A stretch of DNA of 61,338 nt, from positions 1 through 61,338 of the IMG/VR virus record IMGVR_UViG_3300036944_001020. One strand, given 5' to 3'. The stretch's first letter is position 1, and the number at the start of each line of letters is the position of its first letter. The notes beneath the pieces are model-generated. The model saw only the letters and a program-made list of their open reading frames with translations, did not search any database and was not told where the DNA came from. The position numbers and the translations under genes are program-made. Of the stretch, positions 53,123 through 56,371 are shown one piece after another. Origin of the DNA: a virus.

Positions 53123-53388
53123 AGAGGAAGTTTTCCCCTTTTTGTTCGCATATAATTCTGTTCCTCGGCTTCATTTTGAATTTTTTCTTTGAGTTGCATA
53201 TTAATTAAAACAGCAGCAGATTCTACCTCGATATCAGCATTCTCACAGTATTGAATAATTGCATCAATATACCCAATATTGTTCTCTAAAACTTGTTCTT
53301 CGATATATAAAGAAAATTCATTGGGATTTCTAAATCTTTTGGTGATAATTAAACTATCAGATAATGTTAAATTTGTATCAGATTCCAT
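53119..53388 (-). CDS. gp33: gp33 late-transcription coactivator
   Basis: Bridges the sliding clamp and RNA polymerase at late promoters together with gp55. I chose the start at 53388 (MESDTNLTL); the longer frame would overlap FDBR far more. The helical FSLYIEEQVLENNIGYIDAIIQYCE and INMQLKEKIQNEAEEQNY segments and the basic C-terminal KRGKLPL fit the gp33 family; 89 aa is shorter than T4 (112). It overlaps the bilin reductase gene by 11 nt. Confidence 0.8.
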   Translation of the reverse strand: MESDTNLTLSDSLIITKRFRNPNEFSLYIEEQVLENNIGYIDAIIQYCENADIEVESAAVLINMQLKEKIQNEAEEQNYMRTKRGKLPL

Positions 53389-54061
53389 GATATTCCGGAA
53401 ATAGCGTATCGTCCATGTATCGCTTAAAAAGAGTAGCATCTACTCCAATTGTCTCCATCATTGCAGGGGTGTGATGGTTCAATTTTTGATTTTTGCAATA
53501 ATAGTCATGGGCTTTAATATACGAAGATGGTGACTGCATTCCTACATTATACAGATATAAATCTAAATTAGCAATACTGGTTGTCAGTAATTTATCAATG
53601 TCTTCTGGCTCGGATACATTACCCAGAGCTAATATATTTGGACTAAAAATATTATTTGCCCATTCCGGCAATACTCGTGCTTTCAATCCAAATTTTGGAT
53701 ACATTGCCATTTGACGTTGAAATTTATTATAAAGGCGGGATGAATCAACTCTGGAAAAATCGTGGAATGCACCCGTTATTTTATTTGCGCCACATACAAC
53801 GTCAAAACCAAAAATAGGAGATGGATCATCATAATATGGAAAAATAGTCATGTGCATTACCCAGATTTTCTTGTATTCACGGGCATCTACGATTTCAATA
53901 TGTGCTCGGCGATAATTTATATCTTGAAATAGATAATTTTTCCATGTGAAATTTTCACTTTCGATAGTATAATCATGCGGCAATTCTAATACTGCCGCAC
54001 CATCAAATTTAGCTATCATTTTTTCAGAAAATGGTATTACTTTATCCCATACTAAAGACAT
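53378..54061 (-). CDS. pcyX: Ferredoxin-dependent bilin reductase (PcyX/PebS/PcyA family)
   Basis: Reduces biliverdin IXalpha with electrons from ferredoxin. The FDBR core MHMTIFPYYDDPSPIFGFDVVCG...NKITGAFHDFS is clear (residues about 69-106). Counting 17 residues back from Asp87 gives His70, the spacing of PcyA His88/Asp105; PebS has Asn at the His position as I recall, so the His favours the PcyA/PcyX lineage. An Asp-rich C-terminal GVDATLFKRYMDDTLFPE follows. Phage PcyX makes phycoerythrobilin in vitro; the product here is inferred. At 227 aa it matches the family. Start overlaps the heme oxygenase stop as TAATG, so the two are coupled. Confidence 0.85.
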   Translation of the reverse strand: MSLVWDKVIPFSEKMIAKFDGAAVLELPHDYTIESENFTWKNYLFQDINYRRAHIEIVDAREYKKIWVMHMTIFPYYDDPSPIFGFDVVCGANKITGAFHDFSRVDSSRLYNKFQRQMAMYPKFGLKARVLPEWANNIFSPNILALGNVSEPEDIDKLLTTSIANLDLYLYNVGMQSPSSYIKAHDYYCKNQKLNHHTPAMMETIGVDATLFKRYMDDTLFPEYHGI

Positions 54062-54582
54062 TATGCATATTCCTTCAATAGATCAATTGTTAGTTGAAAT
54101 GCAATGTTGGCTTCATCTGCCATGTCTTCGTCAATCAGTGTCCTAACGGTTTTAATTAGTTCTGCGCGATTTTCGAACTCATACATCTTTCCAGACCCCG
54201 GAACTAGTTTCTTCAACATTTGTCCGCCGAACATATCGCCCATGTGATGAACATAGATATGCGCCATGATCTTTTGTGGATCGGTAGAAATTGAATCTAA
54301 ATGATTGGCATACGACTTTGTTGATTTGCGAATTGGATACCCCCCAACGGCATCTATTTCTAAATAATCTTGGCGAATTGCACCAGACCTAGCAATATCT
54401 TCAATCCCGACAAGCAAACTCATTTTGTTTGCATATTCTTCTAGTTTTGAATAGATCACATACTTTTGAAAAATAAAATCAACATACTTTTCAACGTCAA
54501 CTGTTCCAGCAAAAATTGATTTAATGAATGGCTCATTTTCTGCTTCTGCATGCTTTACGGAAATTGCTTCTTTTAGTGACAT
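54061..54582 (-). CDS. ho1: Heme oxygenase
   Basis: Opens heme to biliverdin IXalpha, CO and iron, the substrate of the adjacent bilin reductase. The N-terminal KHAEAE supplies the proximal His (His11), and the distal-helix motif GDMFGGQML matches GDLSGGQ of known heme oxygenases. 173 aa is shorter than cyanobacterial HO1 (about 240) and closer to compact phage forms. Coupled by TAATG to the reductase gene. No own promoter was found; transcription probably comes from the unit starting at 55.66 kb. Confidence 0.9.
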   Translation of the reverse strand: MSLKEAISVKHAEAENEPFIKSIFAGTVDVEKYVDFIFQKYVIYSKLEEYANKMSLLVGIEDIARSGAIRQDYLEIDAVGGYPIRKSTKSYANHLDSISTDPQKIMAHIYVHHMGDMFGGQMLKKLVPGSGKMYEFENRAELIKTVRTLIDEDMADEANIAFQLTIDLLKEYA

Positions 54583-55085: not shown

Positions 55086-55254
55086 GATTGGTTAATTCTG
55101 TTACGAGGAAAACCAATCGAATACCCTAAGCGGCGTTTAGGCTGCTAATGCGAACTGTGTGTCGTTTGCGTTTACATTTTTTTACTGTTAACGACGAGAT
55201 ATGTCGAGTTGTCCATGCGTCTACTTGTTGCCCTGTCGAAACTAGTTCAGCCCC
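55086..55254 (-). ncRNA. ssrA: tmRNA coding piece (permuted, two-piece)
   Basis: Minus-strand GGGGCTGA (55247-55254) begins the tRNA-like acceptor stem, followed by TTTCGACAGGG as in D-arm regions of tmRNA, a small pseudoknot-like region, and a tag reading frame GCA AAC GAC ACA CAG TTC GCA TTA GCA GCC TAA at 55169-55137, encoding ANDTQFALAA. A CCTAA/TTAGG hairpin covers the stop as in E. coli tmRNA. An 8-bp hairpin (55086-55118) closes the 3' end. Its acceptor partner lies upstream, in permuted order. Confidence 0.9.
55137..55169 (-). other. tmRNA tag reading frame (ANDTQFALAA)
   Basis: Ten codons plus TAA. The C-terminal ALAA is the degron read by ClpXP and ClpAP on stalled proteins. The 10-residue ANDxxFALAA form is like tags of beta- and gammaproteobacteria; alphaproteobacterial tags are usually longer. 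Preceded by TAAAC. Confidence 0.9.
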
Positions 55255-55266
55255 ATCAAAAACAAA

Positions 55267-55419
55267 TTAAATAATGGTATCTTCTGCTACAACAAAAATT
55301 GCCCATTTTGGGTGTTTTTTTGAAAGCATTTCTGCCGTTTTTATCAAATGATCTTTACTTTTACTTCTTTCCTTTACATAGGTATTGTAAGGAGTTTTTA
55401 CTACCATTTTATATTTCAT
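55267..55419 (-). CDS. 50-aa ORF nested in the tmRNA intervening segment
   Basis: Starts at the ATG at 55417-55419, 10 nt after the acceptor CCA, and ends 12 nt before the coding piece. The peptide is Lys-rich with MKYKMVVKTPYNTYV, then a helical HLIKTAEMLSKKHP and a final hydrophobic strand WAIFVVAEDTII, which reads like a real folded small protein. No Shine-Dalgarno is visible. Its function is unknown. Confidence 0.55.
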   Translation of the reverse strand: MKYKMVVKTPYNTYVKERSKSKDHLIKTAEMLSKKHPKWAIFVVAEDTII

Positions 55420-55429
55420 AATGTGCTTT

Positions 55430-55495
55430 TGGTGGAGCTGGCGGGTACTGCCCCCGCTTCCAGAACCATTTTTGATTTACTTCATACAACTATAA
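55430..55495 (-). ncRNA. ssrA: tmRNA acceptor piece (permuted, two-piece)
   Basis: Ends CAGCTCC-ACCA (minus strand, ACCA at 55433-55430), pairing with GGGGCTG of the coding piece to a 7-bp acceptor stem with a G3-U70 wobble, the alanine tRNA identity element. A 5-bp T-stem GCGGG/CCCGC encloses a 7-nt loop, GGCAGTA, which lacks the usual TTC start. Upstream, GTTGTATG can pair with CATGGACAAC of the coding piece. The 5' end of this piece is approximate. Order on the strand is acceptor, ORF, coding piece. Confidence 0.85.
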
Positions 55496-55498
55496 CTC

Positions 55499-55630
55499 TT
55501 AACTAACCGCTTCCGTATGTTTACCTTTAAAACTTTTTTTCAGTATTTTAAGCCAAATTGCTTTAGCTTTTACAGAATTATGTTTTAATTCGGCGCGGTT
55601 TAGTTTTAATATTAGTTTTTTAACTTTCAT
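55499..55630 (-). CDS. Small basic protein, 43 aa, likely leaderless mRNA
   Basis: ATG at 55628-55630, stop at 55499-55501. The protein has many Lys residues and an amphipathic pattern (MKVKKLILKLNRAELKHNS). The -10 TATAAT ends 6 nt before the ATG, so transcription would begin at or near the start codon. It may be real or may simply occupy the start of the tmRNA precursor; its stop lies just before the acceptor piece. Confidence 0.5.
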   Translation of the reverse strand: MKVKKLILKLNRAELKHNSVKAKAIWLKILKKSFKGKHTEAVS

Positions 55631-55672: not shown

Positions 55673-56371
55673 TTACTTTGTTTTGCGTAAAATTGCAGTT
55701 TTTTGTCTACGAACCCAATCTTTTCCAACTGGATTTTTAACGGGTGAAGTTGCAATACTTCTTATATGTTTATGTAATTTATCCAATGTTGCATGGTCAT
55801 CGCCATCATGGCTATTATCAACCACCGTAAAATTATCTCTCCCAAAATGATCTTGAAAATGCCCTAAATTATCTTGAACTTTGTGCCAAGTTTTTGTGAC
55901 CACGTGATCTGGCACTGTTCTCGCTCTTGCAGCATTTCTCTTTTTTGCAACATCCAATGATGTATTTACATGCAGCATATGAGTATCATAGCCGATACTT
56001 TTAAGATGTTCCGATTGTTTGTGGATATGATTAAAATCTTTTCCAGTTCCATCTATAATCATTCCCAAGCGCCCGCGCTGGTATAATTTAGATTTTGTCG
56101 CAGTTAAATTTTTTGCCTTTTCACGGGCAGCTTCTCTTTTTTCTGTTTCATGCTCTGGCATTTTTGGATCAAGATTTTGTTTTTTCATTTCATGCTCAAA
56201 CGCATGGTCACTATTAACTAACTTAAATCCCAAATCTCCACGAACTTTATCTACAATTCTAGATTTACCTGACCCCGGCCCGCCTGCAATAAAAATTGCT
56301 TTTAATTTTGCGGGATCATGTACGCCCTCATCGAGTTGATCTGCGTCTAAAAACTCTTTAAATTGTAACAT
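55673..56371 (-). CDS. P-loop kinase / zeta-toxin-like protein with capsid-targeting-like N-terminus
   Basis: Residues about 28-45 hold IFIAGGPGSGKSRIVDKV (Walker A), with NSDHAFEHEM, a LID-type Arg-rich region (KRNAARARTV) and GLVD-like strands, as in the AAA_33/zeta toxin kinase group. The substrate is unknown. The N-terminus MLQFKEFLDADQLDEG resembles T4 capsid-targeting leaders; LDE at residues 13-15 would be a gp21 site. It lies 2 nt from the next gene, and a late promoter at 57048-57055 precedes both. Confidence 0.75.
   Translation of the reverse strand: MLQFKEFLDADQLDEGVHDPAKLKAIFIAGGPGSGKSRIVDKVRGDLGFKLVNSDHAFEHEMKKQNLDPKMPEHETEKREAAREKAKNLTATKSKLYQRGRLGMIIDGTGKDFNHIHKQSEHLKSIGYDTHMLHVNTSLDVAKKRNAARARTVPDHVVTKTWHKVQDNLGHFQDHFGRDNFTVVDNSHDGDDHATLDKLHKHIRSIATSPVKNPVGKDWVRRQKTAILRKTK

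Follow-up and report, generated by a model that had tools for sequence, protein, structure and literature searches.

What is an open reading frame (ORF) of 50 codons doing in the part of a transfer-messenger RNA (tmRNA) gene that is discarded? The question is raised by a viral contig of 61,338 nucleotides, IMG/VR record IMGVR_UViG_3300036944_001020 (analysed over its whole length and called the window below), in which such an ORF lies between the acceptor piece and the coding piece of a permuted, two-piece tmRNA. Removal of this intervening segment (IVS) is established for permuted tmRNAs elsewhere. Judging from comparisons with other phages, we conclude that the ORF is very probably a genuine small phage gene, carried as nested cargo in the intervening loop.

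The locus, at 55491-55137 on the minus strand (as are all window features below), was recognized by the covariance model RF04321 with a score of 119.5 bits (E=9e-23, gathering threshold 47) and also by the alpha_tmRNA model RF01849 (68.1 bits), and in the match the acceptor piece precedes the coding piece, which is the permuted order. ARAGORN reported no tmRNA there. Alignment and sequence placed the acceptor piece, with the T arm, the 3′ acceptor strand and an encoded CCA (55432-55430), at 55430-55491, and the covariance model placed the 5′ part of the coding piece, from GGGGCTG of the 5′ acceptor strand to the tag stop, at 55137-55254. The acceptor stem GGGGCTG/CAGCTCC contains the alanine identity pair G3-U70, and the tag frame GCAAACGACACACAGTTCGCATTAGCAGCC-TAA (55137-55169) reads ANDTQFALAA followed by a stop, with the hydrophobic ALAA end present. 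Between CCA and the GGGG of the coding piece lies an IVS of 175 nt (55255-55429, from sequence and covariance model). The ORF (55267-55419, ATG to TAA) encodes 50 amino acids (aa), MKYKMVVKTPYNTYVKERSKSKDHLIKTAEMLSKKHPKWAIFVVAEDTII, and is preceded by a leader of 10 nt after CCA, AAAGCACATT, and followed by a trailer of 12 nt before the coding piece, TTTGTTTTTGAT; its placement across nearly the whole IVS, as given in a first-pass annotation made from the letters alone, matches the sequence.

Homologues of the nested ORF and selection on its protein

Scans of IMG/VR revealed homologues of exactly 50 aa, without indels and with 54-70% identity to the window ORF, which we term family A. In about two dozen other viral contigs the gene lies inside the IVS of a permuted tmRNA checked with Rfam; the loci with family A within an RF04321 match were L002-L004, L006-L010, L011, L012-L023, L025 (cut) and L029. 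Several of these contigs are near-identical, and the number of independent sequences is closer to ten than to two dozen. A more distant member of 49 aa (L165, 50% identical) was also inside an RF04321 match, and L026 gave only a partial distant match to family A. The pairwise ratio of nonsynonymous to synonymous substitution rates (dN/dS) fell at about 0.04-0.3 in almost every comparison, dS being in many cases close to saturation, and reached 0.47 in one very close pair (L018/L024). Furthermore, third codon positions varied most. From these substitution patterns the window ORF is judged to be a genuine gene under purifying selection at the protein level. The first-pass annotation had taken the ORF to be protein-coding, and the claim held on two of the three points at which it might have failed, since relatives were found in the tmRNA IVSs of other phages and their dN/dS (Ka/Ks) values indicated strong coding constraint.

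Four family A loci only (L005, L024, L027 and L028) lay outside RF04321 matches. In L027 and L028 the gene belongs to an operon, with ATGA overlaps to both neighbours and a deaminase-like gene beside it, and no tmRNA was found. In L005, a different phage whose contig has a putative T7-like primase-helicase gene (read from an ORF), family A comes after the relic CACCATAAACACATTGAGG and is itself followed by a terminator-like hairpin, again with no tmRNA match. In L024 a decayed acceptor piece precedes it, and an intact tmRNA lacking this ORF stands about 650 nt downstream. The CCA-like relics suggest that the L005 and L024 copies derive from IVS copies. Because the gene also occurs without a tmRNA, its function is not tied to one. 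The orphan ORF of L024 (L024:4932-5156) could start upstream, inside the decayed acceptor piece, to give 74 aa, and the repeat CTAAGCTATGAA occurs on both sides of it. A type II hammerhead ribozyme was detected at L005:9123-9189(-), with 38.2 bits barely above the Rfam threshold.

Several observations weigh against the view that the ORF is a nested gene. The window copy is without a clear Shine-Dalgarno sequence, although many relatives have one (AAGGA, GAGG), and part of the length conservation among ORFs in the slot could stem from constraints on the RNA, though third positions vary most. All family A loci are metagenomic contigs known from sequence alone, and no isolate carrying the family was present among 50,697 phage records searched, where the window ORF had no DNA or protein relatives except for a 29% match at chance level. 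It likewise had no relatives in the bacterial and archaeal genome contigs searched, and comparison with Pfam, PHROGs and PDB sequences assigned it to no family with a meaningful E-value.

Other cargo in the intervening segment and exchange of the loop

Beyond what the first-pass annotation could see, the IVS proved to be a recurrent slot for many unrelated genes. Among the matches listed, about 40 further ORF families occupied the same slot, most of them met once. Two samples were drawn, neither of which gives true frequencies. The first, picked by the coding piece alone, comprised at least 69 unique IVSs from at least 86 contigs; among the matches listed, their median length was 78 nt, and 13 of 69 carried a slot-filling ATG ORF of at least 20 codons, about nine of them convincing. 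The second was picked for CCA, AAGGA and ATG, and thus selected for ORFs, and contained many more, including transmembrane micropeptides and a CxxC zinc-ribbon-like family. In L221 the cargo is a thioredoxin (PF00085, 4e-21) within a tmRNA matching RF04321 at 136 bits, and in L187 it is a PGDYG-domain protein. RF04321 confirmed 18 loci, and multi-member cargo families mostly showed excess third-position change.

When 73 IVSs were subjected to dinucleotide shuffling, slot-filling ORFs numbered 12 in the observed set against a mean expectation of 3.9, with a maximum of 10 in 200 shuffles. Because shuffles also yield such ORFs, an open frame by itself is weak evidence and single short IVS ORFs stay uncertain; the very short ones in L074, L094, L098 and L091 were judged to be chance. 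Three other cargo peptides had no match in the phage records. The species genomes of bacteria and archaea, 84,980 in all, contained 74 pattern sites, and none of these was a permuted tmRNA with an IVS ORF, in a search that ORFs without AAGGA would escape. The cultured cyanophage Synechococcus phage BUCT-ZZ01 has a permuted tmRNA whose IVS is without a slot-filling ORF (L341:1340-1590); this tmRNA-like sequence is absent from the annotation of the record, in which an annotated coding sequence, UTS52133.1, overlaps the acceptor piece.

Comparison of close relatives showed, as read from their alignments, that the IVS loop is replaced as a cassette while the mature tmRNA is untouched. Between phages with about 98% identical mature tmRNA the IVS was cleanly swapped, coding against non-coding. 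L018 carries the ORF and L030 has an 88-nt IVS without one; the mature pieces of the two are almost the same and their flanks are co-linear at 83-91%, and their similarity is lost 6 nt past CCA and regained 7 nt ahead of the coding piece. L029 and L072 showed the same pattern, and L057/L090 and L206/L266 are further cases. Several other cargo families have free-standing relatives, in several cases directly upstream of a tmRNA: the window itself has there a 43-aa ORF (55499-55630) with a homologue within the IVS of L216 and L244, at 52% identity to the L216 ORF. The 41-aa transmembrane protein that is cargo in L090 has homologues at L262:1728-1829 and L020:4797-4898, directly upstream of the tmRNA and not inside it. 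Phage protein genes thus have a recurrent home in a discarded part of a housekeeping RNA, and one that annotation can overlook, the window tmRNA being missed by ARAGORN and its ORF family being in no library searched.

The closing stem and expression of the cargo

Pairing analysis showed that the cargo occupies the loop of a conserved stem, which is a continuation of the acceptor stem. In this stem, the last A of CCA and the leader pair with the trailer up to the GAT before the coding piece. In the window, pairing analysis and folding put the 5′ arm (last A of CCA, leader and start-codon A) at 55419-55430 and the 3′ arm (stop TAA and TTTGTTTTT, ahead of GAT and the coding piece) at 55258-55269. 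Over 126 unique IVSs, 9.49 of 10 positions were paired, against 7.52 ± 0.08 with shuffled partners, and covariation was evident, with A-T/T-A/G-C exchange at one position and at least four pair types at others. The stem was present in coding and non-coding IVSs alike. In family A, bases of the start codon and of the stop codon pair with each other, and folding predicted a start region mostly paired within the precursor and largely still so in the free IVS. Translation of the 3′ arm in many families may explain why unrelated cargo proteins end alike (VSL, FF).

How, then, would a gene in such a position be expressed? The IVS may be a permissive site because its RNA is discarded anyway, so that cargo would ride on tmRNA transcription at little cost to the tmRNA. 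We infer that the cargo is translated mainly on the nascent transcript, because synthesis of its start site well precedes that of the 3′ arm and the coding piece, which pair with it later, and we consider this proposal about evenly balanced between right and wrong. Closure of the stem would then stop initiation, RNase P and 3′ processing would free the two tmRNA pieces, and the IVS would be degraded after their release.

The first-pass annotation had instead proposed that the excised IVS serves as mRNA for the peptide, whose production would be coupled to tmRNA maturation and host RNases. The IVS starts right after CCA with the start site within 10-20 nt, so that the cut product would be a ready-made short mRNA, and many homologues have a Shine-Dalgarno sequence near the IVS start. 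However, pairing of leader and trailer is predicted to persist in the free IVS, and release of the start site by processing found no support in folding because the trailer stays on the IVS. The family A gene also occurs without a tmRNA, and in the analogous 23S ribosomal RNA (rRNA) IVS of Coxiella the excised RNA is rapidly degraded and the ORF product apparently not made in vivo (PMC4990558). With the stem predicted to hide the start before and after processing, such coupling is possible but unproven, and we regard it as unlikely. The earlier interpretation was thus upheld for coding capacity and location in a removed segment, and not for dependence on tmRNA processing, given a start predicted to be paired and a gene found also outside an intact tmRNA.

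We consider it rather more doubtful that translation and tmRNA folding are designed to exclude each other, such that translating ribosomes would keep the stem from closing and slow maturation, a shortage of ribosomes would let the tmRNA form, and the slot would sense ribosome supply. Pairing in the stem joins the start region to the stop-codon region, down to the mutual pairing of start and stop bases in family A, and it is conserved and covarying; yet it is also found in IVSs without an ORF, which argues that it serves tmRNA processing first, and among the matches listed most sampled phage tmRNAs have no IVS ORF. In L050, L062, L077, L153 and their relatives the IVS ORF stops inside the coding piece, past the RNase P site, and RNase P cleavage there would leave a non-stop message. 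A wider proposal, which we entertain with the same degree of doubt, is that the permuted tmRNA genes of phages serve as expression slots, dedicated and exchangeable, whose stem makes cargo translation and tmRNA maturation mutually exclusive, cleavage in loci of the L050 type yielding a non-stop message for the phage's own tmRNA. If so, cargo output would follow ribosome supply.

That the product acts on tmRNA or on trans-translation, and is for this reason kept in cis, we hold to be improbable: the association does persist across divergent phages and the protein is small and basic, but L005 and L027/L028 have copies without a tmRNA, and dozens of unrelated proteins, thioredoxin included, occupy the same slot. 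Lastly, a chance open frame in an AT-rich spacer, a reading to which shuffled IVSs with occasional slot-filling ORFs and a few very short, probably accidental IVS ORFs elsewhere might lend credit, has a negligible probability and is refuted for family A, which same-length, same-position homologues in divergent phages together with purifying selection place far beyond chance, as do a confident fold and the operon copies.

The encoded protein, known parallels and neighbouring genes

For the nested gene, which we favour, the AlphaFold model predicted a beta-beta-alpha-beta protein (strands 3-8 and 13-19, helix 22-35, strand 40-45) with a mean predicted local distance difference test score of 93. 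At E≤1, Pfam matched none of 11 members of family A to S23p, the 23S rRNA intervening-sequence protein, and it gave no sequence match to DUF2188. In BFVD the structure matched a DUF2188 phage protein (E=0.014, template modelling score 0.75), a small common arrangement. Comparisons with T7 Gp2, AcrIF9, T4 Dmd and ATfaRel2 gave Z scores of 4.2-4.8, which are suggestive; as they were tied with unrelated folds, no function is claimed from them. The Rfam scan found no intron family at the window segment, and Pfam and PHROGs gave no endonuclease for the ORF. Our guess is that this basic protein of 50 aa is most probably a small accessory protein, directed at the host or binding nucleic acid, without an action of its own on tmRNA.

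The nearest analogue is the 23S rRNA IVS with an S23p ORF in Coxiella burnetii and others (PMC4990558), where a stable RNA likewise has an ORF in a loop that is discarded and then works in pieces. There, a single protein family is involved, excision is by RNase III, and the ORF is decaying and, in Coxiella, apparently untranslated, whereas the slot described here belongs to phage tmRNAs, holds many unrelated ORFs, with the larger families under selection, and is exchanged among relatives. Group I introns of tmRNA genes also nest a protein gene in a removable part, but they self-splice, lie in the T loop and encode homing endonucleases (PMC11915505); here there is no intron, and the tested cargo shows no endonuclease family. 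Permuted tmRNAs are known from aquatic phages such as Methylophilales phage Melnitz, for which the excerpted text of the report describes a glutamine riboswitch and no IVS ORF (PMC9004378), and phage two-piece tmRNAs have been described as mostly aquatic. A gene inside a permuted tmRNA IVS has one precedent in a tRNA-Ala (PMC11915505), which is a lone RNA gene from a metagenome-assembled genome of nominally archaeal origin and not protein-coding cargo. The excerpted account of a database of 97,179 tmRNAs mentions, for the IVSs of permuted tmRNAs, a tRNA gene, a repeat and no protein genes. In the literature searched, with most subscription papers and preprints outside it, we found no description of protein genes carried in a tmRNA IVS, and priority is uncertain. 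The slot gives the search for new small host-takeover proteins a defined target and provides a simple system for how translation and maturation of one transcript stay separate.

Near the window tmRNA, a heme oxygenase gene (PF01126, 7e-20) stands beside one for a ferredoxin-dependent bilin reductase (PF05996, 2e-15) at 53378-54582, the pair forming a phage bilin module. Upstream of the tmRNA, 55673-56371 encodes a P-loop kinase with a zeta-toxin-like match (PF06414, 1e-10; PF13671, 5e-12).
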